This document shows, one piece after another, positions 1,825-52,483 of a stretch of 64,000 bases of DNA. The notes beneath the pieces were generated by a model, which was not told where the DNA came from, did no database searches, and saw only the letters and a program-made list of their open reading frames with translations. The stretch comes from Euborellia annulipes (Eukaryota; Arthropoda; Insecta; Dermaptera; Anisolabididae). How positions within the stretch are numbered: position 1 is the stretch's first letter; each line of letters opens with the position of its first letter. The stretch is from the NCBI GenBank assembly GCA_023213315.1, contig JAKCPI010010620.1, forward strand, positions 1-64,000. Reading direction: 5' to 3'. The position numbers and the translations under genes are program-made.

Positions 1825-2190
1825 ATAAAAGTCAAATGACTTAAAAAAAAATTTCTTTGTTCCCCAAAAATGTAAAAGTTTTCTGGAATAAACGATTTAT
1901 TTATGCCCCCTATGCGTCCTTTAACGTGCCATATGTAATATATAGTGAGAAATTATTGCTATCAATTCGAGTCGATATTTTGACGGATATACATGTTTTG
2001 AGGTCCCCTGAGTTCAAAAACGTGGGTCCTGCAAAATGGTCTGTCTCTCTCTGTGTGTGTGTGTGTGTGTCGGTGATCAAAATATCTCAAGAACGAAAAG
2101 TTTTAGGAGATTCAAGATGATAAGAAATAGTTTCCAAAGAAGAATGCAGCCAAATTTATTTCATTTAATTTTAATAAAAATTCTTAATCA

Positions 2191-2235
2191 CTTGCTGACG
2201 TTTCGGTTCGGGTTTGAACCATCATCGGAGCTGTG
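2191..2235 (-). ncRNA. hammerhead-like motif (arm 1 of 2113-3255 element)
   Basis: Minus strand: stem I GCT with AGC, plus CAC with GTG; core CCGATGAT; stem II GGTTC with GAACC; then GAAACGTC. Position 4 of the core is C instead of U, so self-cleavage may be weak. Confidence 0.6.
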
Positions 2236-2639
2236 ATTTTGTCTTTATGTTTTTAAACAATACATTCAAACTATTATGGTAGTATAGATAGAGCAAATTA
2301 ATATTATAATATAAAATAGGTGAATATAATCTCAAAATATTTTTATGTAATGGCAGGAAATAGAGCCCATGTATCGTCCTGCTCCTATGTACTACAAAGA
2401 TACACTTAAAAATTATCGTATAATTTTAATTAATAAACATTCCCTTCTATTTTTTGAAATCTTTGATGATTCTAAATCTAATTAATAATGAATAATATAG
2501 AATATTTAAATGGAATAAGAAATTAACTCATATGATACTAAAAGTATTTTATTTTATTATTTACATATGAATGATTTAAAACTTAATAATCAAATTAAAG
2601 TTTTATATTTCATTTAAATGTTGAAAATAAAATGAAATG

Positions 2640-2850
2640 AATTACCTGAATGATTTGTAATTAGCTAAGTGGAGGGAGCGAGGGACGTGGAGTATTTGCA
2701 TGAGCCAGCGTCGGCATCCGAAGCTCTTCTGCCGGACGGGGGTAAGGGGAGAGGCGAGCAAGCGCCGAGAAGAAGATAGGGAGGGAAGGAGCGTGGGTGG
2801 AGGGGGAGGGAGGGGTGTGATCGAAAATGTAGCCTCAACAATCACTCACA
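2640..2850. other. purine-rich GC island inside the 2.1-3.3 kb fold-back element
   Basis: It contains GCGTCGGCATCCGAAGCTC and G/A-rich GGAGGGGGAGGGAGGGG. Short frames on both strands are low-complexity. It is probably cargo of the element. Confidence 0.35.
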
Positions 2851-3090
2851 CTAAAAAAAATATTTCATTGTTTGAAATAAATTATTGAAAAAATTGATAT
2901 TATTTAATAAACCAGGCAGGAAATAGAGCCAAAGTATCGTCCTGCTCCTATGTACTAGGCTCTATTTCCTGCCATTACATAAAAATATTTTGAGATTATA
3001 TTCAACTACTTTTATATTATAATATTAATTTGCTCGATCTATACTACCAAAATAGTTTGAATGTATTGTTTAAAAACACAAAGACAAAAT

Positions 3091-3135
3091 CACAGCTCCG
3101 ATGATGGTTCAAACCCGAACCGAAACGTCAGCAAG
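3091..3135 (+). ncRNA. hammerhead-like motif (arm 2 of 2113-3255 element)
   Basis: Same sequence as the minus-strand motif at 2191-2235. T-GGCTGC follows at 3174-3180, 45 nt after the GTC. Confidence 0.6.
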
Positions 3136-3889
3136 TGATTAAGAATTTTTATTAAAATTAAATGAAATAAATTTGGCTGCATTCTTCTTTGGAAATTATC
3201 TCTTATCATCTTGAACATAATACTACAGCTATAACAAATATTCAATTACTAGTTCTAGGAGATTGAAATTTTATATTTAAATTAGGTACGGGGGGGGGGG
3301 GGGGGGGGGGGGCCCCCTGGATTGTGACACCAAGCTTTTAAACAAAATTGTCTAAAAAGTACTAGTAATTTACTAATGTACTTTTTCAGTTTTTTTTTTT
3401 TTTTATTTACTTAAAATGGTTTTGATTAAAATTCATAAATTAACTATTTTTTAGACAGTAAAATTTTTCGTGAAAATTATTTGAAGTACACTTTACTGAA
3501 ATAGTATTTCAGATTTTTCAAATTCATTTTCCGGCTCTTCCTTCCATAGAGTCAATGTTAAATTCCTATGGGGATTTAAATGTAAATTTCGATGGGAACT
3601 TTTTACACATTTAAATAAGTTTTTTCCAATTCTTATGAAATTTTGTATTTATTTAGGATTCTCTATTGTATATAAAATATCCAAATATCAGATTAAAATT
3701 TGGAAAAATAACCATATTTTAAGTATTTTGAATCAATTGACTTTTTTATTTTTTACTAATGAAATACAAGTGGTCAAGTTAACTAATGTGCTATGGGAAA
3801 TTAAATATATTTTAACACAAAGATATCTGCTATGACAGCACATAACCTTCGATTAAAGGAAGTTGCGTTAATCACACCAGGTTTTTTAA

Positions 3890-4856: not shown

Positions 4857-5139
4857 TACTTTCTCTTACCTAGACTATATATGTATATGAGAAAGTATTG
4901 CGATCATGTCAAAAATTCGATGTCGAGATCTTGATGGAAATACACGTTTTGAGGTCCCCTGAGTCCAAAAAAGTGGGCCTTGCAAATTGGCCTGTATGTG
5001 GACATTTTTAAGCATGAAGGAAATGAGCTATGAGGTTGAAATTTTATATTTAAATCAATGAAGTCAGTGACTGTTTTTCTATAGACAGGAGAAGGAGCAG
5101 GTGCAGCCAAAAAATAAAAGCCTCCGATTTAATACATTC

Positions 5140-5184
5140 AATGAGTCGTTTCGGGTGAATTTTATTTACCCATCTTCAGTCCTT
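5140..5184 (-). ncRNA. hammerhead-like motif, decayed cleavage triplet
   Basis: Core CTGAAGAT, stem II GGGT...ACCC, then GAAACGAC instead of GAAACGTC, so the cleavage triplet is lost. Confidence 0.45.
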
Positions 5185-5356
5185 CTAAATTGTTAAAAGT
5201 CCCGGAGTTGGTCAATAGGGCAATACATGTAAATGTGGGATGTGGGCCATCGTATTTATTTAGTTAGAATGCGATGGCGCACATCGCCAGGACATATGAT
5301 ACATAAATTTACACATATTGCCCTATTGACCAACTCCGGGACTTTTAACAATTTTG

Positions 5357-5401
5357 AAGGACTGAAGATGGGTAGATGAAATTCGCCCGAAACGTCTCAT
5401 T
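5357..5401 (+). ncRNA. hammerhead-like motif
   Basis: Stem I AAGGA with TCATT (one mismatch), core CTGAAGAT, stem II GGGT with GCCC, GAAACGTC. TGGCTGC follows at 5433-5439. Confidence 0.55.
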
Positions 5402-6104
5402 GAATTGTATTAAATCGGAGGCTTTTATTTTTTGGCTGCACCTGCTCCTTCTCCTGTCTATTTTATATTTAAGTTAGGCACTCCCCTGAGGCGTGAAAAT
5501 ACGCTTTTGAACAAAATCGGCCAAAAAGTTCTACTACTTTACAGAAGTACTTTTTCATTTATTTTTTCCGATTTTTTCAAAATTCGCTCTAACAATTTTA
5601 ATTAAAATTCATAAATCAACTATTTTTAGATGCTTTTTAAAAAGTATATTAGTAAATTTGTTTGAAGTACACTTTACTGATGTATTATTACAGTTTTTTT
5701 CAAATTCATTAGAAAAAAAACCCTTTTAATAAGAGAGAAAAACGACCAGTGGCGCCTGCAAAATAGGCAACTGCAACTCTAAACTGTCGAAATGTTAGCA
5801 TGACGACTAGGATATCTAAAAAAATATTTAGTTCATAATTACATTTGTAAAAGTAACTGTAATGAATTTTAATATCAATAAATAATTTATATTTTTACAT
5901 TGATATAAAGTGTGTGCTTATTTTGATGAAGTTATTGTAAAATAATGATTTACTTCGTATTTCTTGATGACGTTTCGAGAGTTGGCGTTTCTTATTACCA
6001 CAACGAGCTATCATTCTATCGATATCTCCTATATTTTGTTGTTTTTGAATCCCGGTCTCACGTGTAGTTTATAATCTCGATTATTTTTTCAGATGTTTAT
6101 ACTA

Positions 6105-18904: not shown

Positions 18905-19045
18905 GTGGTTTTTTGTAAAAATTACAACGTTTCGACCACTCATTTGGTGGCCTTCTTCAGGTACAATTCAGTTTAGATTACAAAGTTTGTTACATCTGCA
19001 ATGTGCCTTTATAATCTTAACTAAATTGTACCTGAAGAAGGCTTC
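18905..19045. mobile_element. fold-back remnant with hammerhead-like motif
   Basis: Left part: GTAGCTGTGGTTTTTT, then a minus-strand motif at 18921-18963 (CTGAAGAA, stem GGCCAC with GTGGTC, GAAACGTT). An inverted TTGTACCTGAAGAAGG recurs at 19025-19042, where the second arm is truncated. Confidence 0.6.
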
Positions 19046-19237
19046 AAGATGTAAAATTTATAAAAATAGAAAAATATTTATATCATGTTACCCCTTTAAT
19101 TGCGCCAACATTTTTTTGAAAAAAGGGATTTTGAAAAATTTGATTTTTTTTTTTTTTGTATTTAATTTTAATAAAAATATTTTTAGGAATAGGTAGATGT
19201 ATGGCAGCCAGCAAGTGATAAAGAAACTCTATTTGAT

Positions 19238-19284
19238 TATCGTCGACGTTTCGGGATCACGTCGATCCCATCTTCAGGACGATA
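19238..19284 (-). ncRNA. hammerhead-like motif, best-formed stems
   Basis: Minus strand: stem I TATCGTC with GACGATA (7 bp), core CTGAAGAT, stem II GGGATC-GACGT-GATCCC, GAAACGTC. All core bases agree with CUGANGA/GAAA/UH except one extra U before stem II. Confidence 0.7.
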
Positions 19285-19358
19285 AACTGTTAATGTTTCT
19301 TAGTTGCAATTTTGTATGAACCAAAATTGCAAATATCTAAGCAACAACAACAACAGTT

Positions 19359-19405
19359 TATCGTCCTGAAGATGGGATCGACGTGATCCCGAAACGTCGA
19401 CGATA
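19359..19405 (+). ncRNA. hammerhead-like motif, best-formed stems
   Basis: Plus-strand twin of the motif at 19238-19284. It has perfect 7-bp stem I and 6-bp stem II. TGGCTGC is at 19433-19439, 34 nt after GTC. Confidence 0.7.
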
Positions 19406-19725
19406 ATCAAATAGAGTTTCTTTATCACTTGCTGGCTGCCGTACATCTTCCTAATCCTAATAATTACCCCTCAGCCATCGAAATTCTTCTACTTAAAATA
19501 TTTTTTTCATTTTTAGTAATATTTTATAGAGTCAAAAATATTATTTTCTAATTTTGAGCTCTTCTCATTCGAGTTCTTGGAGAACTTTGCTCCAACTGCT
19601 CCACTGGCATTAAAAAATAAAGGGATATAAAATTCTCCATTTTTATGAAAAACGAAAATTTTCTTAGACATTGTTTATTTTCGTGCTAGTAAAGTTGTCG
19701 TGTGTATTTTTGTTCTAAAGTGTCA

Positions 19726-22700
19726 ATGGAGAGCAACATCACTTTGTGGCAGTTTTTACTAGAACTGCTTGTAAGCAACCGCTACAAGGAAATCATCAGC
19801 TGGACCAATTGTGAGGGTGAATTCAAGCTAGTTAACGCCGAAGAAGTGGCTAGGCTCTGGGGCCTGCGTAAAAACAAAACCAACATGAATTACGACAAAC
19901 TGAGCAGAGCATTAAGATACTATTACGACAAGAACATCATTAAGAAGGTCCTAGGACAAAAATTTGTGTATAGGTATCAACTTAATACATTTATTAAATG
20001 TAGCGATTGGCAGAGATTTAGAGAAAAAAAGAAAATTCGAATTAAAGATATACTGGTACAGTACGTACCTAAAGGGACCAAACCCCAGGGGTGGGAGTTT
20101 CTGCTCTTTGGACAATCAGGATACAGTGTGTTTCAAAAAGGACTTTACAACTTTGAAAATTTTGTCAGAGAACCTACACAGGTGATTCTAGTGTCAAATT
20201 GGAGAGAAACACATCAAGTTTTGACTCGCTTAAGTGCCAAATCGCACTATCACGAGCTTTAGCGGCAATTGAGCGTTAAAGATGGCTGTCTTCACTGGAC
20301 CAGAGCTAGCTCTGTCTTTTGGTTTGAAGAATCATATATAAATTTATTCAAAGAAGCTACAGAGCTGATTTTAGTGTTGTTTAAAGTAAAACACATCATG
20401 TTTTTTTTACCCCAAACCATGTGGCTTCCGTTGGTTATCCTGCACGCATCCCATCGGTAGTCAATTTCTTCCCAAACTCTTTAGTTTGAGATAAAAAAAA
20501 AAATTGATGTGTTTTCCTTTAAACAAACTAAAACCAGCTCTGAGCTTCTTTGAATAAATTTATATGACTTTGATTCTTCAAACCAAAACACAGAGTCAAA
20601 ACTTGATGTGTTTCTCTACAAATCGACACTACAATCACCTGTGTGTTCTCTGAATAAATTTATATGAATTTTCACAATTGTAAAGTCCTTTTTGAAACAG
20701 TCCATATAAATTCGACAAGTCTTATAACTCGGCTTTTGATTAAATCTCGAAGAGTAAATTTTTCTTTAACCGTTTTTGTATAGAAATCTGTTTCTGGCAC
20801 CTCTCTAAGAATGTCGCTTTATATCTACCGATTTTTTTAAAAGCTCATCGATAATTAATTGAAAATCCAAGTTGTCAAGGGTTTATTATATGTATACAAA
20901 CACAAGCGTCCTTCGAGGTGAGATCTAGGGTCCGGAGGGAGCCAAACACTCTACCACAACTATGCTGGGTCATTTTTGATCACAGCATCAAGGTTCTGGA
21001 ATTCTCTCCCCTGGGCAAGGACCTTTGGCTCTTTCAAGGAAGCCCTGTTCAAATATATTCCGCTAGCTAGGCGCTGGGGAGGGGTGGGGGTTGGATCCGC
21101 GTCGTGTAGTGAATTCAAGAATTAATGATTGTTTCTTTTATTTTATTATTTATTTTTGTGCTAATCTTGCATATCATTAAAAAAATTTGTTTAAATATAT
21201 TTTAAACTCAATCTGTAAATTAAAACTTATTGCATTTTGTCTTTTTCTCTAAGAAGCTCTGCTTCAGAGAATCTTTAAATAAAATTCTAAATAACAGAGG
21301 AATGCAGCCAGGTAGGAAACCTCTATTATAAAATCAAACTCCTTTGTTGCAAGACGTTTCGGTCAATTTTATTGTGCCATCTTCAGGTTTTCTAAAAAAC
21401 GCAACAAAGGAATTTGATTTAATAATAGAGGCTTCCTACCTGGCTCTTCATTCCTGTTATTGAATTCTACACAGCCATTTTCTAAATTAATATTAATTAA
21501 TTAAAATTCTAAATTTCTTTCGATCGTCTTCAGGCTCATCAAAGAAGTTGAAAAGATTATTTCTCATTTAGCATAAGATGTTACCAACTCAAATAAAGTG
21601 AAAAAAAAACTTTTCTACTTCTTTGATTAAGCAACAAGCTTAAAGATGATTCAAAGATAGAATTGAAACGTTGCTTGCAATTGAATAAATATAATTGGCC
21701 CGGAAAAGCTCAGTTTTTTTAGTTTTCCGCAAAAAGAAAGACGTATTTAACATAGTCTGAGTTTCGATTACTATTATGAGAGGAAATGTATTGTAATTAA
21801 ATGATGAAGCTTTAAAAAATGACCACTTTGAATGGTTTTCATTCAATTTTTACTTTTATTCGGTTTTTCGAGGCAAATATCTTTGCATGCTTTTACTCGT
21901 TTTATTCCCACACACGCTCATTAAATGAAATTAATAAATATTTATTTTAGATTTGTCTCTTTCCCGGAGATCGTTAAGATGGAGAATAAGATTCCGTTTA
22001 GTGTGAAAATGGAGAGTATGCAGAGAGCACCGAGGGTTTCTGCCCCTTCGATGTTCCTTCCTGCCAGCAATCATGACCTTGTCTTGCCCCCACCGAGCCT
22101 TGCGTCGCCTCTCTTCGCCCCTGGTACAGGTACTCCATCCCCCTCTTTGTTTCTTCTTTGCTTTCACACCCTGTAACGCTTATCGCTCAAACTTTGGTTT
22201 TAGGCTTGCAACTGGCTGATTTGTGTCCATCTCCGTTCGGGTTGACAGCTCCTTTGATCGAACTGTGGAAAACGCTTCCTCCCCCTCCACCTCAGCCGCC
22301 TCAAATGATGTTAGCACAGAGTGAAGATGAACGGGAGATCAATTTGTCCCTCCGAGCTCCTAAATCTATGGCGTTAAAATCAGCAAGAGTAGGCAGACTC
22401 GGGTAAGCTAGAATCAATTTTGTTCTCTTCTTTCTTTGTTTTCGGTTTTACGCATTCAGGTTCCTATAAATAATTTAGTGCTCATTTGCTTTGTTGATAT
22501 TTTTCAATGATGGTCGAACCGTATCGAAATTTACAAACTTCCAAAAAACGAAAACGCTTGAACCTTGCTGCTATTACTGTCGAGTCCTGTTGTTTTCCCT
22601 TTTTCAAAGAAAATTTAAAAATGTATAGAATTTTTTCTTTTTTCTGCTTTCCATTATTATAAAAACAGAGATACTGTCACAGAACGTTGGCTAGGAGGGG

Positions 22701-30300: not shown

Positions 30301-33300
30301 AATCTACCGCAAGGAAATTGGGTTTCCTATTCAAAACGAAGCGTTACTTTTCCTCCCAACAACTCCTAATCCTCTATAAAGCCCAAATTCGGCCGTGTCT
30401 TGAATATTGTTCCCACCTTTGGCGAGGGGGCGTCGAAAGACGCTCTCTCCTCCTTGGAAGCCATACAGAGGCGTGCAATTAGACTGATAGGTGATTCTAC
30501 CCTTACTGCATCCCTACAGTCACTAGATCATAGAAGAAGAGTATCTGCACTATCTCTCTTCTACAGGTATTACCATGGTCAATGCTCTGCCGAATTAAAA
30601 TCAATTATCCCACCCAATGCAACATATTCACGGAACACAAGAGAGGCATCTTCCCAGCATCCCTATGCTGTTCAGATCACGACTAACAGAACAAAACAAT
30701 TTCATTCTTCCTTTGTCCCCATGACCTCCCGTGATTGGAACAAGCTCCCTGCGTCTATCTTCCCCAAAACCTACAATCTTCAGATTTTCAAGTCTAACCT
30801 CAACAGGCATCTTCTCAGTTCCCGCAGTTGAGTTTCCCCTTTATGCTTCTCCTTTTGTTTTTATTTTCTTCCTGGCTGCATGTGACTATTGGTCATTATA
30901 GGTCTTCGGACCTTATGCACCCATTCCAAAAAAAAAAAAAAAAAAATATAAAAATGTCCGGTCTTCTTAGTAAAAAATTCGAAAAATTGCTCTAGTACAA
31001 AAGCAAATTTTGATCAAAAAAATTATTTTTACATTTATTTTTAGAGTAGGAGAAACAAAAATTTCATATGAAGAAGCCAGACCCAAAAATCGTGTTGACC
31101 AGTGTTATACCTATATTGAGGATAGTGTGTGTATAGCTAATAAAAACATTTGCTATAAATTGATCTAGTGAGAGGAGAACGAAGAAAGGCTAGTTAATTT
31201 CTCTCTCTTCGTTTCCTGTTAATGAATTATCTACAAAATAATACAAATCTTTATAATTAAGGGACCCTTCTTTATTGTGTTAGGTCTATTCTATTAGGTT
31301 ATAGCAGTGGTTCTCAAACTTGTGTATTTAGAGCCGCCCCTTTTCTAGTTAGAATAATTATGTGTCCCCTGCAAGAAATTAGATGAAAAAAACCCACGAT
31401 ATTACTAGCTAAACTTTTATGAAATACTTATTTAAAAATAAAATTTGAACTTGTTCATTATATGATTGACTAGCAATGTATGCATGGCATTATTTATTAA
31501 TGTGACTCTCAAATGTTTAAATGTAATGGATCTAAATGCGAATATAATACTCACCTTATAGGTAAATATATAATTCTAAATATAAAATCAATTACTTAAT
31601 TTTTAATTTATTATATTCTGCCATTTAGATCCAGCCCTCACTGAGGAAGGCTTACAGCAGAGTAGCCGAAACCTGACGGTCTGAGATCAAATAGATTTTT
31701 AATAAAATAAATATATAAATTATTTATATATTTTATTTGGACTGAAAAGACCTATCACCTTTCCAATTACTAGCCATGGTTTGATACTCGTGCGAAGTCG
31801 CGGTAACCCATCAAGATGATGTTACTTAAGGCGCTTAGGGCCGGTAGCTTCATCTATGGGTAGTTAGTGGAGTCTAAGTTAAGTGGCTTTTTTTTGTAGT
31901 GCAGAAACCCTCTTTAGTTTTATTCTTATAGTAAAATATACGATATCTCATCATTTTATTGATAAAAGGAGTAGATATATTTGTTATTTTTATTTTTATT
32001 CAACTTCTTTTAACAATAAAAAGACGAGATGTGATATATTTTAGGGCTGCTTGCATAGAGGTAGCCATTTTGCTTTCAATTTGATAACTTCAATTAGTTT
32101 CTGTATTACACACTAACTATAGGTCAACTAACTACCCATAGATGAAGCTACCGGCCCTGAATGTATGCCTTAAAAATATTATTTTAATTTGAGTTATAGT
32201 AACAATTTAATTATTAGACGCCCCCTTCCACAGTTTGAGAACCGTTGAGTTTTAGGAAATCTTTTTTAAATCTAATTTTATACTTACATTATATTTGCTT
32301 TATGAATAGTTGTGACTCTTTTTCTTCCATTGCGTTTTGCATATTCGAAAGCATATCTCGCTACTCTCTCAGAATTTGATTGAGTTACAACTTTCATGCT
32401 CTCTATAACACCTACAACACTCTTAAAATAATTTGTAAATAATATACCAAGAAAATAAATGAATGATATTTAAATGGACATTTACTTCATGCTCCAACAT
32501 GGCGTATTCCCCTTCTGTATTTTGACGAATAATAATAATATCAATCCCCTGTTGACGAGCTTTAACGCCAGGATACGATTTGCAATTGACGATGTTAATA
32601 TAAAGATCTAATTCGTTTCGTAGAGCGACATTTCGAGAGATGACACCTGTATCCATGCTGCCAGTTTCAATATTACCTGCAATTGGAAAGTTAATTGAAA
32701 AGAGAGATGATTTGGTATAATAAGAGGTAAATAGTTTTTAAGGATTTTAAAATCTCTTGGTTTCAAATAATTTTATCCAAATTGAAGGAAACAATTTTCA
32801 AATTTTAACATAAAGGTTAGAAAATTTCAAATCCAGTTAAAACATATTTGTTTACCACAGACCAAGGGCGGATCCAGAGGTTTTTCTCGGGGGGGGGGGG
32901 GGTAATCTGGTGTGACTCGTCGCACAGCACACTATTTTTTCTTAATTTCGGTAATTTAAAGGCGCATTCTGTACTTGTTTGCCAGAATATAAATACAAAT
33001 CAAATTTTTAAGTATTAATTTTTAAAATTTTACGTTAAAAATAAATTTTTTTCAGAAAAAAAAGTATTTTTTTCAAACCCCTTGTATCCGCCCTTGCCAC
33101 AGACAAACATAAATAAAAACTAATTTTCAGATGTACCTTACTACTTAATAATAATACAACATACGTAAAAATACAGAAGAGAAAACTAATAAATTATAAT
33201 ATAGGTCAAAGACCAAGAAATTTTCTGCTCTGTTTTTCTATCAGGGGCGTATAAAGAATTTTTCCGGGGGGGGGGGGGGGGGGCAAACTCATTTTTAAAT

Positions 33301-35381
33301 ATCTCTCTCTCCACATACAAAAAAATATTTTTAAAATACCGGATATAAGTGAGCCCCGGGCCCTCTCAAAGACAATATTTTTATTAAAAAAATGCTTATA
33401 TATATATATATATATATATATTTATTTATTTATTTATTATTACACAGGCAATTAGCCCAAATACACTTCACTTTTGTTGTATTAATTACACACATTCAAT
33501 ATACAATTTAGCCCTTCTTTTAAATACATTAATTGTTGGTATGTCCATGTTCGGGCAACGCTCATCATTTCCCAATCTGGATAATCTAGCAATAGGGGAC
33601 AGAGACCATATGACGTCCTGTGCGCTGGTACTACAAATTTCTTTTTGTCACAAAATTCATAAGATGATTCTTTAAAAGCAATCCTTGATTTTAAACCAGG
33701 ACATAATAATTGGTTATTAATGATCTTATACAACACACAGGATCAACATAGTCCCTACTGGACTGCAACGTGCTCAACCCTGTCCTGAAACTCATAATCT
33801 TACCAGGAATGAAAGTTAGAAGAAAACGCAGCCAAAATTTTTTCTTTAAAAATATATTTCAGCAGCTGACGTTTCGGCTTTGGTCAAAGCCATCCTCGGA
33901 GCTGCTATTGGTCATCATATACATATATTTTGAATTGTATCAGGTAATAAAATTAATTTAGGATATAACATCAGGGAAAAAAGTCTTCAGTTCTAAGACA
34001 AACTTTTTCCTTCTTCTATCACCAATACAATATATTTATTTTTTGTGCCTAATGTGATAATTGACTCAGGGCAGTACCATTTCATCTAATCCAATAGCAG
34101 CTCCGAGGATGGCTTTGACCAAAGCCGAAACGTCAGCTGTCGAAATATATTTTTAAAGAAAAAATTTTGGCTGCGTTTTCTTCCATCTTTAATTCCTGAT
34201 ACAAATTCCACCAGCCATAAAAAATACCCTTATACTCATAATCTTACATTTCTTTATATTCAGATATATATATAATATATTTCATTTTTTTTATTACTTT
34301 TATTTATGCGACGCACATTCTCAAACAAAAATATAGAAACCGTATTTATACATATAAATTTGAAAAATTTCGGGGGGAGGGGGCTTCGCCCCCTCCCCCC
34401 TTATATACGCCCCTGTTTTCTAATAATGTATTATAATTAATCAGTAGGATCCATCCGAAGAGAAGTGTTTGTCTATTTCTCTGGTTATTTGGTTGTTAAT
34501 TCAAACTTATGAATGATGACTCTAACTGGAAAAGATTTGGGAGCCTGTCCCAGTAAAATCCAGAGACTCAGTAACCACATTGAAACAACAAGAGAGGCTC
34601 TAGTTTTTATTTAGGAAAGAAGAAAGTATTTTTACGCCTATTATTTAATAAATTTCAACAAAAATAAGGCTTATACCTTTCAGACAAACTCCATTCCTTT
34701 TTATAGATGTTAATGCATATTCTAGGTCCTCATTTCCTTCACTTTTTGGATCAATTTGAATTTCTTCAAAGTCAACAGGAACTCCTGTATAACTATAAAT
34801 AAATTATTAATAACATTACATGCTTATTTTAAAAAGAGATAATGAATAGATATGAATTAGAAAATTTCAAAATTTAATTTTCTCTTCCTTATAAAGTTAA
34901 TTTTAAGCATCAAAAATTTGTTACCTTCAAGATAAACGAACCAATCAGTGTCTTTCGAAATTTGACTTCGACTTATAAACCATTGGTGAGTTTTGAAAAA
35001 TGGAATTGATAATTATCAATTGGTTCTTACGTAAATATTTCCTTGACGTGTTCCATGAGCTCAGGTCCAATTCCGCCTCCTGGTAGCATAGTGACCGTGT
35101 GCCGTCCTCCATATTGCGCTTTTGGGATGGCAGCCTGGACAGTATCACCGTGAATTCATTTTACTCGAGATCATGTAATTTTATCCAATCCCTAAACATT
35201 AACAAATTGACTCCAAGTATATTTCAATATTTCTCTTTTTTATTATTCTTACAAACAAAGGTTTTTAATGTAATTTTGTAATTAAAACTGTAATCACGTG
35301 AAATTTTAAAAATTGTACCTTGAGTCAAAGTGATTTATCTGACAGAAAAAGAACCTGGACATCAATTAATATTTTTAAGAG

Positions 35382-35418
<37 letters not shown>

Positions 35419-38276
35419 TTTGGAGAAACGTTTTACAGTTACAATATAGCCGAATCGTGAATTGAAATTGCAAAAGAAAATATAAAATTTTAGGAAAAAT
35501 GATGTCTTATTATTATTCTCCATTGAGGAAAAAACTTTTTTTTTTAATTAACTTCTGCTTTTTGCTTTCCACTTACATGGGTGCCCAAAATAGTTGCCCC
35601 ACATGCCAGGATCATCTCTCTGTCAGCTTATTATATAAATATCGTATATAAAGGCCTACAATAATTGATTAAATTACTACTTGATATTTGGACACTTTGA
35701 AATTTGTCCCTTTCCTAAAGATCTCCATAAAGTGAAATTGAAAAAATATGCATTTGATATGAATATTTCACATTTATGTATATATATATATATATATTTT
35801 TTTCTTTTATATATATATGGCATATATTAAATTTCTTAATGCATAACTTATATGTAAATCGGGCCTTAATTTATAATTTTAAGTATAAAACAGTGGTTCC
35901 CAAAGAAGGTCTTGGTAAAGCATTCGGGTGGTCGCGAGAAAGGTACCAAAATAAAATGTTAATTGAAAAACAGCTTGATAAATAATTTATTTTAGTCGCG
36001 TAATTAAAAATTTAACAAAGAAAATAGTCATCAAATCAGTCTAATTTAATATCTAACAATTTAACTATAAAAATGAGAAATGTATCATCAGTACATTGTT
36101 ATTACTATATATATGCGCTAACCACTGACTTCCTGTGTGTAGTGTGTATGTGCCTGTCAGGGCGCTGATTGGCCAGAATAAAAGGAAATTGAGTTAGAGA
36201 GGGGAAGTTAAAACTTCGGCAAGTAATTGCAAAATTTCCAAACAGTGAGCAAGAATAAATTTGATGAATTTGCTCTCCGGAGGCGAAGCCCCCTGGCAAG
36301 TGGTAAAGCCCGCCTCCGAAACAAATTAAAAACATAAAATAGAAAAATAAAAAAAATATATATGGTTAAACAATCACTTAATTTAGTAGGTTACTTTTTT
36401 TTTTTTTTTTTTTTTTGAGATAAATAAAATTTAAAAACAAGGTTATATGTTTCAAGCAGTATCAAGCAGTATTTGTATTAAGGTTGTATTTGTATGAGTT
36501 TCACGAGGGTGAAACTGACATAAATACAACCTTTGTTCAAAATGTTTCACTTGAAACCCACACCGCAATCCTTAAATTTAAGTAATTGTATTACTTCTGA
36601 AAATGATACATTGAGTGTAGAAATACGTATAAGGTGTTTATAATATATTGAAGCATATATATATATATTACATAATTAACCTCATTAAACCATAATGTTT
36701 CAATTAGAGCCAATGGTTAAATTTGTTTACAAACTTAAGGCAACTTTGGGAACCACTTGAATAAAATTTATATTTAATAAAAAATTCTATTATTGATCTT
36801 TGAACATTACATTATTAGAAAAAGATGGGATTTTGACAAAAGTAGAAGAAATACATCAAAATTACCATCTATTCATATTTTTTTTCTTATGCCCAGCAAT
36901 GGCAAAAACTCCATTTAGCCAGATCTATTCAGTATAAATACTAGATTTAATGTTAAATAAATCAATAAAATCGGGGGGGGGGGGGGAGTTAGTTTCTGGA
37001 TTATCTTTGATTTATTATTTATATAAATAGTAATTTCCATAAGGGGAAATTTTACAGAAGGGGTGTATAACAACTCTAATTAACTTTCTATTTCAAATGA
37101 TTTCCAAAAACTAGTAAATTTATTAACCTTGACCTAAAAACAGACTGAGTAGAAAAACATCGATTTGTAAAAGAAATTTCCAATAACATCTAATTAGTTG
37201 CATATTGGAAAGTTTAGAAATTATAATTTTTTTACAAAACGCAATTTATAGCTGTGATGTTATATTCATAAGAGGGTAGAAAATGAGAGATGCAGCTAAG
37301 GTTTTTTTCTTCATTCATTTGATCCGCACGGCTGATGTTTCGGTTCCGTGTTTGAACCATCTCCAGAGCTGGCGAAAAGTCATTATCAAAGTGCCATAGT
37401 GAATTTTATACATTGTTGAACCAAACTCTTAAATAAAATAATAATAATTTATGTACCTGGTCATCTCATACTGTGTATATATTTATTATTTAAAAGTTTG
37501 GTTCCACAATGTATGGAATCCACTATGAGACTTTGATAATGACTTTTCACCAGCTCTAGTTCAAACACGGAACCGAAACGTCAGCCGTGCGGATTAAATA
37601 AATAAAGAAAAAAATCGTACTGCATCTCTCATTTTCTACCCTTTTATGAATATAATTTTTTTTTCTTTTAATTCTTCAAATCAACTCTACGAATCGATTC
37701 TCCTATCTCTGTTAAAAAGAAAGTTTGTAAACACGGCTACAGAACGGATTTGACAGATCAAACAAAAATAAAGCTTTAAATCAAAGTCCAAAGACAATAA
37801 TAACATTCTTGGAAACAAGAGGTTGCTGAAAAGTACTTCATTTCAAGTTCAAAACTGAATAATCACTATACAAATGAAATACTACTTCGGCTTCGTCAAA
37901 TGCTATGTTAAACTTTTTTTTTTTAATTGAAGGCATTTTAATGTAGTGCATTTTCTTTGAATTTTTATTTAAAATTTTTTTTTTTTGATAAAAATGGAAA
38001 AATATGTAAGTAAAATTAATAATTACGGTATTATATAAGAATAAATTTACATAAGCGAATAAATACTCACAATTGCTTTAGAAATGGTTGTTTTATGTTG
38101 TAAATCGAAATCAGACAATGTTGCTTGGGAGAGCTTTAAAAAATATAAATAAATAAATTAGTAATTAGTAATATATAATAAATTAAAATATTAAAAATTA
38201 CATTTCTCGAGAAGACGGTGGAAGGAAGGAAAAGATTAAAGTTTCTCAGTGAGCTCTTGAATATTCTTATAGCCAT
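27351..38276 (-). CDS. IDH3G: isocitrate dehydrogenase [NAD] gamma subunit, mitochondrial, 9 exons
   Basis: Exons in transcript order: 38276-38202, 38133-38071, 35134-35031, 34792-34677, 32676-32486, 32421-32288, 29567-29336, 27859-27673, 27430-27351. All joints keep frame, giving 393 codons plus TGA, the length of human IDH3G. Residues 1-25 ([20 protein letters not shown] onward) are basic and amphipathic, a mitochondrial presequence. Then come [109 protein letters not shown] and [21 protein letters not shown] and the C-terminal HTS-GDLGG segment favour gamma over beta. Gamma is a regulatory subunit of the heteromeric TCA-cycle enzyme that oxidises isocitrate to 2-oxoglutarate. Odd points: residue 66 is Gly where the family has Asp (PGDGIGPE), and IMTNLYG replaces the usual VMPNLYG. 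Introns 2, 4, 6 and 7 hold nested transposons; introns 1 and 5 are only 68 and 64 bp. Confidence 0.95.
30225..30950 (+). pseudogene. 5'-truncated, frameshifted LINE fragment in IDH3G intron 6
   Basis: Plus-strand frame 30249-30440 reads [20 protein letters not shown] and [19 protein letters not shown] frame change near 30430 continues as [20 protein letters not shown] to [20 protein letters not shown], ending TTGAG about 30830. This is the segment after the reverse transcriptase in CR1/RTE-type elements. A 3' UTR and a poly(A) run (30928-30945) follow. It is antisense to IDH3G. Confidence 0.85.
31305..32247. mobile_element. old hAT-like element in IDH3G intron 6
   Basis: It begins CAGTGGTTCTCAAACTTG and ends CAGTTTGAGAACCGTTG. 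The flanking 8-mers GGTTATAG and AGTTTTAG agree at 6 of 8 positions. It contains a nested inverted-repeat element (31837-32158). Confidence 0.7.
31837..32158. mobile_element. nested element with AGGGCCGGTAGC inverted ends
   Basis: AGGGCCGGTAGCTTCATCTA at the left is matched inverted at the right end, and the match continues through GGGTAGTTAGT, about 31 bp in all. No clear target duplication. No coding content. Confidence 0.7.
32863..33096 (+). mobile_element. hAT-type MITE with poly(G) tract, IDH3G intron 4
   Basis: Third copy of the 23-kb family. Ends are CAAGGGCGGATCCAG and TATCCGCCCTTG. A perfect 8-bp duplication CCACAGAC lies at 32855-32862 and 33097-33104. The right-hand poly(C) tract is lost here. 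Confidence 0.9.
33420..33775 (-). pseudogene. LINE C-terminal fragment nested in a hAT element
   Basis: The minus-strand frame 33736-33482 begins [20 protein letters not shown] and has [13 protein letters not shown]. After a frameshift the expected close reads [18 protein letters not shown], then stop. A (TAAA)n tail is at 33420-33440. It lies inside the 33242-34415 hAT-like element, so it inserted later. Confidence 0.65.
33863..33904 (-). ncRNA. hammerhead-like motif
   Basis: Stem I CAGCT with AGCTG, core CCGAGGAT, stem II GGCTTT-GACC-AAAGCC, GAAACGTC. Confidence 0.65.
34098..34139 (+). ncRNA. hammerhead-like motif
   Basis: Identical plus-strand twin of 33863-33904. TGGCTGC follows at 34168-34174, 33 nt after GTC. 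Confidence 0.65.
35891..36759. mobile_element. hAT-like element in IDH3G intron 2
   Basis: Ends are CAGTGGTTCCCAAAG and CTTTGGGAACCACTTG. The flanks are A-rich and only roughly duplicated. The interior holds a GC-richer patch (36110-36320) and a strong hairpin at 36480-36535. No transposase is seen. Confidence 0.7.
36480..36535. repeat. near-perfect 24-bp stem hairpin
   Basis: AAGGTTGTATTTGTATGAG followed by TTTCAC faces GTGAAACTGACATAAATACA and ACCTT across a 4-nt GAGG loop. It lies inside the 35891-36759 hAT-like element. Confidence 0.75.
37265..37655. mobile_element. fold-back element, AGAGGGTAGAAAATGAG family, copy 1 (IDH3G intron 2)
   Basis: Outer arms ATATTCATAAGAGGGTAGAA and the inverted partner ending at 37655. 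The minus-strand motif at 37329-37372 reads CTGGAGAT, stem II GGTTC with GAACC, GAAACATC (decayed). The right arm (37541-37587) has lost the core but keeps GAAACGTC. Same family as 43912-44314. Confidence 0.78.
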
Positions 38277-39150: not shown

Positions 39151-42100
39151 ATGAGTAACCAAGATTTAGCAACGTTAAAAGAAATGGGCTTTTCTACAAA
39201 TAAAGCGTAAGATTTTTTACTAAAATATATTTATTTCGCAACTGTCAAACAATGCATGCTGAGTCATGTTGCTTTCCACTTTTCAAATAATTACTTATTA
39301 TAAATAAAATAATCACTCCACACTCGTTCGTCAATCTATCTTGAAATTGATTTTTTCCTATTTTATTAAATTATTTATAATTTCAAAAAATTGTCTATTT
39401 TATGTTGAATTTGTTTGACATATTCATCACACTTAATAAAATTTGACATTTAAAATTTATCACAGAAATTTGCTTATTATTTGACACCTGTAGCATTAAA
39501 TATATATATATATACACTAATAATTTCTGAGTAATCACAAACCTTAAAAGTCCTATAAACCTTGCCTCGTATTCTAAGCTTAAATAATATAAATAAATTT
39601 TGAGCTTCGAACATTTTTATTTTTAAAAAATACACAAAGGCAAAATAAAATCTTTTTTTTAATAATATACTAGTTGCTCAGCCCTCCTCTCCCACAATAC
39701 CAGCTCTATCTGTTCTGTTAGAAATTTTCTACCTTAACTTTTTTTATAATAAATGATCTGTAAAGATTTAATGCTATTTTTCACGTATTTATACCCTGAG
39801 GAACCCCTATCATAAATTTTATTAAAATCTAAAGAAAAATAAAGAATCTAATTTTTATGGAGATCCCCTACTCCTAATCTGAATGAATGTTAAATTCTTT
39901 TCCTATTAAAAAAAAATTATGAAAATTCATTCAGCAGTTTTTCAGTATATATGTTAAAAACAGCTGAACAAGAGACAAACTGCTTTATATATATATATAA
40001 TAGGAAGTATATAGTTATTTAATATGAAGATGAAGATTTCTTGAAAGATGAAATAGTATTTATTTTTTCCATTGACTCACTTAACAAATTTTGGTTTTAG
40101 CTCACCCTGCATGATTTAGTTATCTCTCTACCAGAGATTTTATTTATCCTAATAATGTTTTATTGCTTTATTTTAGGATGAAAGCTTTGGCAATTACTGG
40201 AAATCAAGGAGTTGAAGTTGCCTTAGAATGGTAAATAATAAATATATGATAAAATTTATTTCAATATTAAATTTAAAATTTTTTTAGGCTTTTGGCTCAT
40301 GGAGAAGAACTAGAAAATCTTCAAGATCACCCTACAGTAAGTTCACAGACTTTTCCAGAGTCCAGAATCAATGCGAGCTCAGCTATTTCTTCTGCACCTC
40401 TTACTCAAGAAAAATTGGATCCTCCGAATGAATGTGAAGCTGCTGGAGAATCGATTTGCGTAGGAACTCCTTTTGGCCAACCAAATGAACCCACTCAAGC
40501 GCATGAAGAAGCGGGTCAAGGGGAAGCAGCCTCTCCTAAAGATAGTATTATAGACCATGCTCAACTAAATGATATAAAAAAGTTTAAATGTGACAAGTAA
40601 GTCTATGTTTATTTATGATTTTTTTAAGTGCAATTTTTCAGATGGACGCCCAGGAATTTCTTAATGAATAGTTTGAAAATTACTGGGTAGAAGGTTTTTA
40701 GTTAATAAGTGAAGAGGCAGCCAAAATATAAATTAGTTTATAGATTAGTTTATTGGCAACTTTTTCTAGGATGGCCGAACTCTTTAGAATATATATTTCG
40801 AACTTCCTTGGTGTCCAATGTTGTCCAATTTAATAATTTGTTATTAAAATCGACTTCGACTACAGGTACTAAATAAAATTAAGTATTAAATTTTGATAAG
40901 AGCTAATAAATATCGTGATCTTATTATTTTAGCTGACATGCAATTCTGTTTTTTTCCACAATCTTCAAAAAATTGATTTCCTCTACATGCGAATTACATG
41001 CAAATTACATTTTGTCAAAATATTTTTATTGAAACCCTGAAATGGTTTAACAATTTACAAGTAAATCTCGTGTTGAATAAAATAATACTGCCAAATAAAC
41101 TCGTACAGTATTAAAATATTTTTTTATTTTTTTTTTTATTATTTTCACATCTCTCAACAGAGATTAACTCCAATTACAGAAAGACGGAGGAGAAATTGGG
41201 TTTTTTGAATTTACTTATTATTTATATAATAGAATATATATATATGCGAAGATAAGTTTTCTCGGGTTAAGTCGCTTGTGATGTTGAGATCCTCTTGAAA
41301 ATGGTTCCAAAAGGAGAGCCGAAACGTCGAGTAAATCTCAACATCACACGCGACTTAACCCGAGAAAACTTATCTTCGCATACATCCGGTCGTGGAAACC
41401 TTCCAGAATATATCCATATATATATATATTATAAGCTTATTCAGCCGTTTTGTTAATAACAAAGAAAATATGTCAATTTCATGGAAATGAGACTTCGGAC
41501 TTTCCGACACCGACAAAACGTTTCAACTAACAATAAAACAATACTGGACATTTTAAAGAGTGTCTAATACACTACAGATTGCGACTAATCGCAATGAAAA
41601 TACATAAAACCGAGCTGAGCGATAAAAATAAAAAAAAGCAATTATCTACATGTTATTTCAATGGAAAAAATTCAACGATCGAAAGGAAGTACTTACAATT
41701 AAAATTAAGGGCTGAAACTTCGAGCGAAATTTTTTTTTCGATGTTTGGAACAATATTTCAGTATGTCCGCGAAAATAAAAAAATGTTCGTTTCAAATGAA
41801 ACACCCTAATATATTTATATATATATATATTAAATGAAATAGAGCGTTTTCAATTAAATGTCACTCGATAAATATGAGATCAACTCAAAGACTTTCATAC
41901 TAGAATATTAATGCCTCGACTCTAGTTCTTTTTGTGGGATTAAAATTTTACCATATCATTTTTGTATTTAGTTATTTATTCGGAAAAAAAATTTTAATCA
42001 ACAAATTTCAAATATTTTTTCTAGATGTGGACTCGTCTTGACAACAAGTGAAATGGAAAAACATGCCAAGGAAACAGGTCACACTCAATTTGTAGAAAAT

Positions 42101-45100
42101 GTAACATTAAGTGAAGAAGATAAAAAAAAACAACTTATTAAATTAGCTGAAAAAATTAAACAAAAACGAATGGAACGCGAGGCATTAGAAAAAGAAGAAG
42201 AATTACTTCGTGAAAAAAATCGAATCAAATCCGGAAAAGAAATCAGCGCTGCTAAGAAAAGGTACGAATAAATTACTATTCACGAGAAGGGCAGAGGCAT
42301 CCAAAATAAAAATGCTCTGAATGCTAGGATATTGGACAGCATTCATCTGCCTCTGCCCTTGTTCATAATTAAGTAATCACAGCTAATATTTATTTATCAA
42401 TTACTATTTATTTTATTTGAAAAGTGATATATATATATATATGGACCCTGTTATGCAATGGTGTGTCAAAGACCAAACATCGTGTTTTGAGAAAATCAAC
42501 ATTAAAGTTTTTCTGATTTAAATTGTTTTTATTAGATTATATATCATTTTTTTTGTCACTTGTGCAAGTAAATACTGTAATTATGGCAGATATTCATAAA
42601 TTATCTCTAAAAATACGAGTAATTTAGAGAAAAACAATAAAATATAAAAAATTATTTTTGCAAAATTCTCTAACAAGGAGACGGCCAAGTGAGTATATCA
42701 CGGATTCGTTTGAAAAAAATTGAGGTGATACTTTGAGCCAAAAAAATGTTCACATGTTTCGGCGTTTTACTCCATAGAGCCCCGATTGGCAAAAAAAAAA
42801 AAAATAAATACTGAAACAATTTTCGCGCTTTCAAGTAGTTTCTGTTTGAAACATTACGTAACAGTCAGCTGTGGCTGGGCTGGTAGCGTAGCTGAGTGAT
42901 AACTATGTGGTCCCGGGTTCGATCGACGGAGTATTCAATTTTTTTTTTTTTTTTCAATCTTTTTATGTTATTGTAACAAATAATATATTTTCCGACAAGA
43001 GGTCCCTTTTCACTTCCCGCATCACTTATATAGGCCTATTAGATTTACTCTCATCAATTAGTAAGGAGGCGCATAATAACCTCAGTTGTAGAAGAACTCT
43101 AAGTCTTAAACAAATTGGAGGTTGGGGGTATTTATTTTTGATATAAAATTATTTTTTACAATAAAATCCCAATTAATTTTTTCAGGCTTGAAGAAGCTGA
43201 AATGAAAAAAATTATTGAAGCACGGAAACGAGAGAAATACGAAGATAAGGTAGCCCGAGAAAAGATAAAACAACAAATTGAAGAAGACCGAAGAGCAAGA
43301 CGAGTCAAGTTTGGAAACGTGTCAGGAGAACAATCGACGAGTAGTAGTGTCCCAAGCTCAAGCACCTCTACTGCTACTAGCGCTTCAATAAGCTCACCTG
43401 TATCGAATAAATCCTCGACATCCACTTCTACTGAAACTTCCAAAACTAAAATTCAGGTGCTTTTGTTTGTTGATCATTTTCTGCATTGGCTTCTCATGGC
43501 ATTATTAGTGTTTTTTTTTTCTTCTGTATGCAACTGCCAAAATCAAATTAAATTTTATTCTAGAAATGAGAAAACATTCCTATTACACACGAGAGAAGTG
43601 AAACGTTTACTCAAAATTCACATTCACGATCGGAAAAAGGTTAGCAAATTGGCTAGGTCTATTGAATTTTTCATTTATTAACTCTTTTTGAGATATAAAT
43701 GTGTTGAGTCTAGCAGCGTCGAAAGCCATTTTTTAGTCTATGTGCAATAAAATCCAAATTTGCTGGGTCTCTTCGCACGTGAACGAATCCTTCCTCAAAA
43801 AATTTTAAATTTACGTACTGTTATTAAGGAAACGTACAAATTTTCGAGTGTATCTTTATTTAAAGAAAAAAAGAAATATTTCAAATCAAAAGTATATTTT
43901 AACTTAATAAGAGGGTAGAAAATGAGAGATGCAGCTAAGGTTTTTCTTTATTTATTTAATTCACATAGCTGACGTTTCTGTTCCGTGTTTGAACTATCCT
44001 CAGAGCTGGCGAAAAGTCATTATGAGAGTGTCATAGTGGATTTTATACATTGATGAACAAACTCTTATATAGTAAATAGATACACAGTGTGCGATGATAA
44101 ATGAATTCATTTATGTACCTGGTCATCGCAGAGTGTGTATAAATTTATTATATAAGAGTTTGTTCATCAATGTATAAAATCCACTATGACACTCTCATAA
44201 TGACTTTTCGCCAGCTCTGAGGATGATTCAAACACGGAACCGAAACGTCAACTGTGTGAATTAAATAAATAAATAAAAAACCTTAGCTGCATCTCTCATT
44301 TTATACCCTCTTATTATTTAATATAACATCTCAGTTATAAATTGTTTTTTTTTTTTTTTTTTTTGTATATTTTAACCAAATATTCACAAATTGCTGACAA
44401 GGAAGCTAGAAATGTGTAGTTTTGAGAGATTTGCGATAGTATCCAAGTCCCCAAATAGTCAGTCCCCCATGGCATGTGTCCATTGTAGGTTGCCTGGTAG
44501 CGACTTTCAAAATGCTGCATGTCCTGATAAAAGCGCTCTCCTTGCTCCTCGGAATAGCCACCCATAATCTCTTAGAATTTTGTATTCAATTAAGAGTTTG
44601 CGACGATTAGAAAAAATTCTATTCAAAATTGGGACTAAAAGAATAGAAAAAAATGCAAAAGTTGACAGTTATGTAAATATCATTGTGACGGTCACAAAAG
44701 CGATGTTTCAAGGATCTAACGACTATTTTCTACGCACTTGCTGCTCAATTAACCAGAAAGAGAAATTTTTTGAAAATTTGTTACATACTGTTATGGCATT
44801 ACTCAGTAGAGAATTCATTGGCTAATTTGATAAGGTTTTACTTTAAATTGACTCATATTTTTTTTTTGCTCTCCCTCTTTAGTTGCCTTCATCTAATTTT
44901 TCTCAATCTATTTCAGATTCGACTTTTAAATGGTAATACAATTCAAGAGAACTTCGGTTCAAAAGAACAACTTTCGTGCGTACGTTTATTTATAGATTTT
45001 TATAGAACAGATGGTACTACTCCTTATGATTTAATGACAAATTTCCCAAAGCGCGTTTACGCTGACGAAGACTATGAAAAGCCATTAGATTCATTGAGTA

Positions 45101-51586: not shown

Positions 51587-52483
51587 TTATATATATATAT
51601 ATATATGTTCTGGAAGGTTTCCGCGACCGGATGTATGCGAAGATAAGTTTTCTCGGGTTGTGTCGCGTGTGATGTTGAGATTTACTCGACGTTTCGGCTC
51701 TCCTTTTGGAGCCATTTTCAAGAGTATGGAATTAGGGGGAATTGTTGGGGTGGTTTGTTTACGGGGTCGCAGTCTTGCTGGTCCCCAGGTCAATTTGGAT
51801 GCCTCAGAGGCTTGGTTTGGTCTCTGAGAGCAGGAGGAAGGTTGAGTGTGTGTAATTGCGTTTGTGTTCGGTTTAGGTTGACTACGGGGCCTCAGTCTGC
51901 CTCCCCAAGTCGATGTGTTATTGGTTTGGTTAGTGGATGTGTTAGGAGATTGGGTGCGTGTGTGTGTGATCGTGTCTGTGTTTAATTTAGGTTGACTTTG
52001 GGGCCTCAATCTGCCTACTCCCCCAGTCGATGTATTGCTGGATGTTTCCGAGGCTTGTGTTTGTGTTTGAGATGTGTTGGGTTGTATGGTGGCGGTTTGC
52101 GTGTTGATGGTCGAAGTGATTTGTGTTTTGGTTTTTCTTACTGCTATGGCGCTCGAGGTCTTGCATGCTTGACGGCTAGCTGACGACTGAACCTTCTCGG
52201 TTGGGTTTGCTGCTTTTATACCTGAGTAGGTGGGGGTACTAATGGTCATTCCTTTGTTATTGACTGACCCCTTTTTAGAGCTAATTGGTTTTGGAGTGGT
52301 AATCCCTTTTTGAATCTTAATGAGCTGCTTAATTGGTGTGGTGGAAGGGGGCTCTTTGTTAGGTTTAATGGCCTTGCTAATTGAAGTCCCTTTATTAGAA
52401 GTAATCCCTTTGTTAATGTTAGAAGTTTTGATAATTGATTTGTTAACGGGTGTGTGTGTGGAATGTGAAGTGTTTATTATCAA
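51587..52483 (-). CDS. uncharacterised S/T/Q-rich ORF with peptide repeats, probably retroelement-derived
   Basis: 298 codons from ATG 52483, ending in (TA)n sequence. The protein is low-complexity and basic. The first half has INKGITSNKGT-like and PISSKKGS units, the second half three copies of a GRLRPRSQPKPNT unit followed by ITHT. No catalytic motif, signal peptide or membrane segment is seen. The last 45 codons (MAPKGEPKRRVNL onward) simply read through the hammerhead-like motif and the sequence shared with 41.3 kb, so the frame is physically part of that element. It lacks introns. It could be a structural protein of a Penelope-like or other retroelement, or a chance long frame in a GT-rich strand; I cannot tell. 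Confidence 0.4.
   Translation of the reverse strand: MIINTSHSTHTPVNKSIIKTSNINKGITSNKGTSISKAIKPNKEPPSTTPIKQLIKIQKGITTPKPISSKKGSVNNKGMTISTPTYSGIKAANPTEKVQSSASRQACKTSSAIAVRKTKTQITSTINTQTATIQPNTSQTQTQASETSSNTSTGGVGRLRPQSQPKLNTDTITHTRTQSPNTSTNQTNNTSTWGGRLRPRSQPKPNTNAITHTQPSSCSQRPNQASEASKLTWGPARLRPRKQTTPTIPPNSILLKMAPKGEPKRRVNLNITRDTTRENLSSHTSGRGNLPEHIYIYI
51684..51725 (-). ncRNA. hammerhead-like motif inside a 298-codon frame
   Basis: Minus strand: stem I ACTC with GAGT, core TTGAAAAT, stem II GGCTC with GAGCC, GAAACGTC. It lies in sense within the ORF 52483-51587. Confidence 0.5.

Follow-up and report, generated by a model that had tools for sequence, protein, structure and literature searches.

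The window analysed here, that is, the whole 64,000-nucleotide stretch of the Euborellia annulipes contig, carries mirrored hammerhead-like motifs that are real. The reading that we prefer, with a probability of about 0.86, is that the fold-back elements holding these motifs are insertions of Penelope-like elements (PLEs) that carry type I hammerheads with one extra base in the core (+1 hammerheads), that their mirrored form had a two-ended origin, and that cleavage would take place as a likely protein-helped dimer. The initial annotation, made from the letters alone, had proposed a hammerhead fold with covarying stems, an extra base and a link to PLEs, and as a whole that interpretation is supported.

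In the proposed mechanism, each fold-back would be a non-coding PLE insertion composed of two copies of a terminal segment placed head to head, and both outer ends would be regions in which reverse transcription started. One end would start at a distal site and keep a tail of about 33 nt, and the other would start at a proximal site. Within each segment lies a hammerhead of type I whose core has a single extra base (U or A, '9a') after A9 and before stem II, and whose stem III, in most cores seen, is reduced to the self-complementary ACGU. In PLE RNA, cleavage would occur after GUC, with the hammerheads most likely acting as a dimer aided by the PLE protein; in a transcript of the whole palindrome, the core would be masked by the opposite arm. 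A broader proposal is that +1 hammerheads form a distinct natural core class of animal PLEs and phages that lies outside current models, that in PLEs they act as protein-assisted dimers via a palindromic stem III, and that every mirrored insertion is a two-ended integration from two different reverse-transcription start sites, exactly one of each. We offer this broader proposal tentatively, and on balance would not expect it to hold in full.

This one genome offers more than 31,000 strict copies and many families, with target sites that can be read, so that two questions become testable: why PLE insertions have a head-to-head arrangement, and what purpose the hammerhead serves. Three features deserve pursuit: the strict insertion of one base, the same insertion in viral-contig hammerheads with complete stems, and the rule of one tail for each element.

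Hammerhead cores in the window

An alignment (A1) was made of ten core families from outside the window, none of which shares a stem II sequence with it, and a covariance model (R1) was built from these ten families with stems I and II written in as in a hammerhead. R1 independently recovered all 15 positions that had been named in the window (one best pair and 13 others), at most 6 nt off and with E values from 4.5e-13 to 9.4e-4. Over the whole window, R1 gave 21 matches at E <= 10, 17 of them below 1e-3, including all 15 named sites; the further matches include 21632(+) (E 1.8e-6), 31633(+) (E 9.9e-4) and 37548(+) (E 0.022). At E < 0.03 there are 18 sites, of which 12 make up six mirrored pairs and six are single.

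A sequence descriptor (YYGANRA, n bases, stem II of at least 4 bp, GAAAC-GTH, stem I of at least 3 bp, with n = 0-4) found nine matches in the window at n = 1 and none at n = 0, 2, 3 or 4, and 60 dinucleotide shuffles of the window, whose G+C content is about 31%, gave no match at any n. When the demands for stem I and GTH were dropped, n = 1 gave 15 matches in the window, three of them doubtful-looking (43288, 54311, 11680), versus a shuffle mean of 0.33, and the spacings 0, 2, 3 and 4 gave 0, 0, 0 and 1.

The best pair lies in the fold-back F3, with one core in the left arm (19237..19285, minus strand, one extra U before stem II) and one in the right arm (19358..19406, plus strand, with a fold-predicted cut after C19398), each with an R1 E value of 5.3e-13. 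Its stems had been put at 7 bp (stem I) and 6 bp (stem II); both are present, and measured as unbroken runs with G-U allowed they come to 8 and 7 bp. The extra base before stem II, reported as a U, is indeed a single extra base in the core, but it is an A rather than a T in the single core at 18918..18968(-), found by the descriptor and R1, and also at 31633(+). The latter core (31633..31681) has a looped stem III (ACC-TGAC-GGT) and belongs to the core family of PLE loci L179 and L185. A second single core, at 51680..51729(-), is a U3-A8 variant within a 140-bp stretch that has 94% identity to 41289-41428, and the core at 21632..21680(+), outside the initial list, is decayed. Among the weaker sites, 21347 has two contiguous stem II pairs, and a stem search found neither stem III nor stem I there; the sites at 5137 and 5354 have a stem I of 2 bp each.

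Covariation of the stems and the hammerhead fold

The claim that the stems covary is upheld by the alignment and by counts for stems I and II that exceed those of shuffles. In A1, 91.1% of the cells pair, and the covariation score is 0.906 versus 0.233 (sd 0.056) for shuffled alignments, a value reached by 0/500 shuffles, although these shuffles overstate the significance because the families may share ancestry. Sliding the structure by 1-3 columns lowers the pairing to 21-52%. A larger sample comprised 89 loci (357,468 bases, overlaps doubly counted), which were picked by an F3 core or a GIY-YIG match or are the window itself. The descriptor, run over these loci with 0 to 3 bases before stem II, gave 112 matches (76 of them F3-type), which correspond to 23 distinct cores in 18 clusters. 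Pairs 1, 2 and 3 of stem I are formed in 18, 18 and 15 of the 18 clusters versus shuffle maxima of 15, 14 and 14, with three to four pair types among the clusters at pairs 1 and 2, and pairs 4 to 8 stay within the shuffle range. Stem II was examined in 53 strict-pattern matches among those listed, 44 of them distinct. Here the free pairs 3, 4 and 5 are formed in 39/44, 31/43 and 32/43 of the listed matches versus maxima of 30, 25 and 29 in 2000 shuffles, and pair 6 (29/43, maximum 32) lies within the shuffle range.

The cores thus combine CUGANGA and GAAA with covarying stems I and II, and they have a stem III with A15.1-U16.1 and a cleavage triplet NUH, as in hammerheads generally. U4 is replaced by C in 5/23 distinct cores of the 89 loci. 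Both 41287-41336 and 51680-51729 carry U3-A8 in place of C3-G8 (core TTGAAAA), and one of the 23 distinct cores is U3/G8. Strict-pattern counts over the assembly, made for two of the four classes, gave 31,357 for C3/G8 and 2,377 for U3/A8. Natural U3-A8 hammerhead cores have been described, and the change keeps activity (PMC3088659).

The hammerhead topology with a near-absent stem III, as initially proposed, is borne out. It is important to note that the main search patterns require an ACGU stem III, so its frequency there carries no information. Stem III is ACGT (ACGU in RNA) in most cores seen, and in two cores found without that demand (L180 and L189) it is ATAT (AUAU), likewise self-complementary. 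A looped 3-bp stem III (ACC/GGT) with a 4-bp stem I occurs in L181, L184, L185 and at 31633 of the window, and L151 has a looped stem III of 5 bp; the stem search found no stem III in L168, as at 21347. Since the ACGT stem III amounts to two pairs with zero loop, a dimer would be the natural way to form it, and the self-complementary sequence points, indirectly, to dimer action.

The extra base between A9 and stem II

Exactly one extra base precedes stem II in 23/23 distinct cores of the 89 loci and in 112/112 matches, and the cores therefore differ from the canonical Rfam hammerheads (RF00163 and relatives), in which A9 sits directly on stem II. The whole assembly (903,471,066 bases in 25,949 contigs; the window is G000:C7403) was scanned with a strict pattern that fixes CTGA, GG/CC and GTC, which means that other families are missed, and that allows W (U or A) as the extra base. 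It gave 15,765 + 15,592 = 31,357 matches. The same pattern minus the extra base gave 108 + 115 = 223, and reversed-pattern controls gave none for either. Of the 44 distinct listed cores, 27 have a T as the extra base and 17 an A, the pattern having allowed T or A alone.

At gathering score, Rfam found no hammerhead in the window and, over sixteen loci, one tRNA and nothing else. The gathering scores are blind to the difference between the two classes, because three cores without an extra base (L009, L015, L016) were also unmatched. In permissive mode, neither 19180-19470 nor 19350-19412 (both in F3) nor the core of L182 matched a hammerhead; the run on the palindrome was dominated by microRNA families with long hairpins, which a palindrome would be expected to hit. 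Such ribozymes may be undercounted when current hammerhead models are used for searches, as the strict insertion of one base suggests.

The descriptor classes recur in viral contigs, which were taken to be phage. With no extra base there are 48 loci, 16 with three stems; with one extra base, 22 loci, 14 with three stems (10 distinct, the base being T in nine and C in one); and with two extra bases, 17 loci, none with three stems. One core of each class was run through Rfam in permissive mode: the core without an extra base matched Hammerhead_1 (E 0.018, 18.9 bits, gathering 34), and the +1 core (L003) gave no hammerhead match. Prokaryote genomes, used as a chance control, gave at least 118 pattern matches, and stem I reached at least 3 bp in 11 of the 118 matches listed.

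The literature searched, which did not include Cervera and de la Pena 2014 and Lunse et al. 2017, yielded no description of a one-base insertion before stem II; section 8 of PMC3088659 describes other core insertions and does not include this one. One published sequence already shows the extra base, namely that of PAc, the Poseidon PLE of the lizard Anolis carolinensis (PMC11167929). The +1 core should disturb the usual stacking of A9 on stem II, yet by the PAc precedent it can cut, which makes it of interest for structural biologists.

Mirrored elements, tails and target-site duplications

F3 had been described as a fold-back spanning 19189..19456. A fold-back is present there but is wider: the element extends over 19185..19494, between two 11-bp target-site duplications recognized by flank comparison (AAAATATTTTT at 19174..19184 on the left and AAAATATTTTT at 19495..19505 on the right). 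Its inverted arms (19179-19297 and 19346-19464) are 95% identical, and its right end carries the tail (about 19463-19494). Five further mirrored PLE insertions hold two cores each, all found by R1. F1 (2113..3250; cores 2189-2236(-) and 3090-3137(+)) is flanked by a 14-bp duplication with one mismatch (2099-2112 / 3251-3264), and F2 (5054..5459; cores 5137-5187(-) and 5354-5404(+)), whose left end has an extra stretch, by one of 13 bp (5041-5053 / 5460-5472). F6 (33804..34233; cores 33860-33907(-) and 34095-34142(+)) has a 14-bp duplication (33790-33803 / 34234-34247) and a stem II as in PLE locus L187. Duplications of 12 bp flank both F7a (37234..37650; cores 37326-37374(-) and a decayed 37548-37590(+); duplication 37222-37233 / 37651-37662) and F7b (43904..44364; cores 43963-44011(-) and 44209-44257(+); duplication 43892-43903 / 44365-44376). 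Besides these, a fold-back at 21293..21496 has one weak core (21347-21394(-)) and an 18-bp duplication with one mismatch (21275-21292 / 21497-21514), and another at 41240..41385 has one U3-A8 core (41287-41336(+)) and AT-repeat flanks in which no duplication is callable.

Accordingly, 7/8 window elements (the six mirrored pairs and two single-core fold-backs) have duplications of 11-18 bp with at most one mismatch. Their longest exact shared flank words are 8-14 bases, versus at most 7 in 50/56 mispaired controls; the word of F7b is clipped in this comparison, its duplication being 12 bp by direct alignment. Target-site duplications of variable length, as expected of PLEs, thus occur both in these elements and in the genome copies of F3. 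By eye, F1 and F2 seem to be nested in copies of another dispersed repeat (2000-2110, 3260-3340, 4950-5060, 5460-5560).

Exact 35-mers of F3 occur 269 times in the assembly, and among 100 listed places 18/18 close pairs run reverse then forward. From these, 28 places were fetched (18 pairs and 10 single), of which 22 hold two cores (<= 4 mismatches) and six hold one; the 22 and the window make up a sample of 23 F3 pairs, with core spacings of 99-804 bp. All 23 pairs point outward, an order that has exceptions, since a close pair in the U3-A8 list (C650:122464+ / 122670-) faces inward. Exactly one tail, about 33 nt long, is present in 22/23 pairs (11 on the right, 11 on the left), none in one and two in none, which corresponds to the optional tail of 30-40 nt at one end that is known from PLEs. 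An independent choice at each end would give exactly one tail in half of the pairs at most, so that the probability of at least 22 of 23 is about 3 in a million, although the pairs are less than independent because palindromes are inherited. Ten further F3 places comprised two complete pairs with one tail each (L279, one such pair, seems to be an allele of L195), two pairs clipped by the fetched stretch, and six single cores. Exact shared flank words of at least 11 bp occur in 15/23 pairs versus 14/506 mispaired ends, and these 15 words begin 60-68 nt beyond the cut at the end that lacks a tail and 88-103 nt beyond it at the tailed end. Outward ends that differ in the tail fit two reverse-transcription starts on two target strands.

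Some centres are common to two copies at 71-92% identity (e.g., L194/L195, L196/L212, L197/L211, L198/L201, L200/L204), and palindromes therefore also spread as units; in L202, L205, L208 and L216, the palindromic ends are short or absent. Repeated formation and inheritance of palindromes both seem to occur. By eye, the tails of F1, F3, F5, F6 and F7 share a short word like CAGCYAT across otherwise unlike families, and their arms share a word like GCAGCCA; these shared end words may mark the start of reverse transcription.

PLE loci of the same genome

The link to PLEs was initially drawn by analogy. The same genome contains PLE loci whose terminal repeats hold the core, and the ends of the window elements are of the PLE type. 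A profile search with PF01541 (GIY-YIG) gave at least 118 matches (150 scored of 710 candidates), and twelve of the loci were fetched for a core search, of which 11 contain the motif by R1 at E <= 1. In five of these (L179, L180, L182, L188, L190) the core is also in the R1 training set; outside it, L186 and L187 score below 1e-12 and L189 scores 6.7e-4, and L184 (0.022), L185 (0.036) and L181 (0.33) score weakly with complete stems. The one locus without an R1 motif at that threshold, L183 (G000:C21118:20500-27000), has an open frame of 609 aa whose N-terminal part is a GIY-YIG domain and which looks like bacterial UvrC; the contig may belong to a symbiont or contaminant.

In 7/7 self-compared loci (L179, L180, L181, L182, L185, L186, L187), the core lies in direct or inverted repeats that flank the open frame. 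The type I order, near-absent stem III and position in PLE terminal repeats are those of the minimal hammerheads of PLEs. In L182, two open frames of 822 aa are arranged head to head, and each has the motif both upstream and downstream. By Pfam cut-offs, L182 and L180 pass RVT_1 and GIY-YIG, L179 passes RVT_1 alone, and L181 falls just under RVT_1. L186 and L187 have the F6 core type (stem II of L187 is identical) and 12-bp flank words. The window fold-backs are too short to hold a frame with reverse transcriptase and GIY-YIG domains, which makes them non-autonomous copies.

Comparison with known systems

The closest system described is PAc, whose hammerhead is at the start of the PLE open frame and shares with the window cores the order CUGAGGA, U, stem II, GAAACGUC, the same extra U and the ACGU stem III (PMC11167929). 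PAc differs from the window copies in being autonomous and tandem and in having an ATG inside the core, whereas those copies are short, mirrored and non-coding and have other stem sequences. The PAc cut is placed 26 bp past the start codon in the text, and the printed letters agree (PMC11167929). The PAc hammerhead cleaves with PAc protein present, the protein being needed; the single changes C3G and G8C abolish cleavage, and combining them restores it in part (PMC11167929). By analogy with PAc, which has the same extra U and cleaves in the presence of its protein, cleavage of the window copies is plausible. The same study reports that PAc extends both target strands and that the tail spans the distance from one reverse-transcription start to the other (PMC11167929).

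Penelope families of the rotifer Adineta vaga also have head-to-head inverted pLTRs, forming palindromes, with an optional 31-bp tail at one of them and target-site duplications of 8-10 bp; unlike the window elements, the described families keep most of an open frame (PMC3846280). The word hammerhead does not appear in the text of that paper. The architecture and the kind of ribozyme were therefore already known from rotifer PLEs (PMC3846280) and PAc (PMC11167929). Minimal type I hammerheads of PLEs (Cervera and de la Pena 2014; Lunse et al. 2017) likewise combine type I order, a reduced stem III and PLE association, and the title of Lunse et al. 2017, as given in citing reviews, names cleavage as dimers. 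PLE hammerheads have been called conserved, with an unknown role (PMC7761336).

Alternative explanations

In the main rival reading of function, what preserves the hammerhead fold is its use by the PLE protein for binding or folding, and self-cleavage is residual. PAc hammerhead mutants still insert normally in vitro, and RNA-seq gave the authors no ends at the site of the cut (PMC11167929); mobility may thus not depend on cleavage. The predicted fold of the isolated F3 core is a hammerhead (-17.4 kcal/mol), while in that of the 310-nt element 47/47 core bases pair with the opposite arm; because of this predicted masking, which also suits a binding role, palindromic copies are probably poor ribozymes. 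The ends of inverted arms were examined in 12 distinct single-core F3 copies, in seven of which the inverted arm was in reach. One of these (L217) was left out of the count since its query began at the cut, and among the six readable ends none is at the cut, with no peak in this very small sample: two arms stop 14 and 38 nt beyond the cut, and those of L278, L281, L282 and L286, read from the letters, pass it and terminate within the core (L281 and L282 seem to be a single insertion that was duplicated). On reading, one arm seems to start at or near the cut site in 41240-41385 and 21293-21496. Against a mere binding role, the catalytic roles of the hammerhead core nucleotides are established, and the nucleotides kept across families are those that catalysis needs. 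Moreover, 41287 and 51680, with 2,377 genome matches of their kind (the strict counts covering C3/G8 and U3/A8), replace C3-G8 by a change that keeps activity. We consider the binding role improbable, though far from negligible. In the preferred reading, and as the predicted folds suggest, the mirrored cores probably arise as a side effect of PLE integration and do not serve as a device of two strands; the transcripts in which cutting would matter are those of tandem or autonomous PLEs.

As to the mirror itself, the second arm could be a snap-back copy of the first made by self-priming, the course favoured by the authors who proposed it for Adineta PLEs (PMC3846280). Several inner regions are palindromic throughout (L207 96%, L199 94%), and by reading the arms of one element often have private variants in common. 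But full copy-back would tend to give two tails, which are seen in 0/23 pairs, each arm of L208 matches an arm of a different element, and PAc extends both target strands (PMC11167929); self-priming is thus unlikely, if still a serious contender beside the two-ended origin. Ordinary terminal-inverted-repeat DNA transposons (MITEs) with chance hairpins would account for long inverted repeats, short non-coding elements and flanking duplications. Such elements have symmetric termini and a fixed duplication length, whereas here one end alone is tailed, the duplications vary in length, the cores lie 99 to 804 bp apart and covary, and PLE loci carry the core in their terminal repeats; this candidate was rejected as very improbable. 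Equally improbable are metazoan retrozymes, small tandem hammerhead units that spread via circular RNA. These resemble the window elements in being non-coding and in having type I hammerheads in non-autonomous retroelements at high copy number, but they are sequence repeats with tertiary contacts, circular RNA intermediates and no PLE ends (PMC7761336). The window elements have a PLE tail and duplications, most cores seen are without a looped stem III, and the units are inverted rather than in direct tandem in 23/23 F3 pairs, on which ground this candidate too was rejected.

Other observations

At G000:C5140:26561-26819, three pattern matches without the extra base lie on the same strand 113 bp apart, perhaps a small tandem array of another hammerhead kind. 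Two open frames of the window mark the genome as animal-like: an ETS-domain frame of about 180 aa, unbroken across the domain, at 19720-20259(+), 0.2 kb from F3, and a long one of LINE type at 61500-63998(-), which has an endonuclease and a reverse transcriptase domain and is cut by the window end.
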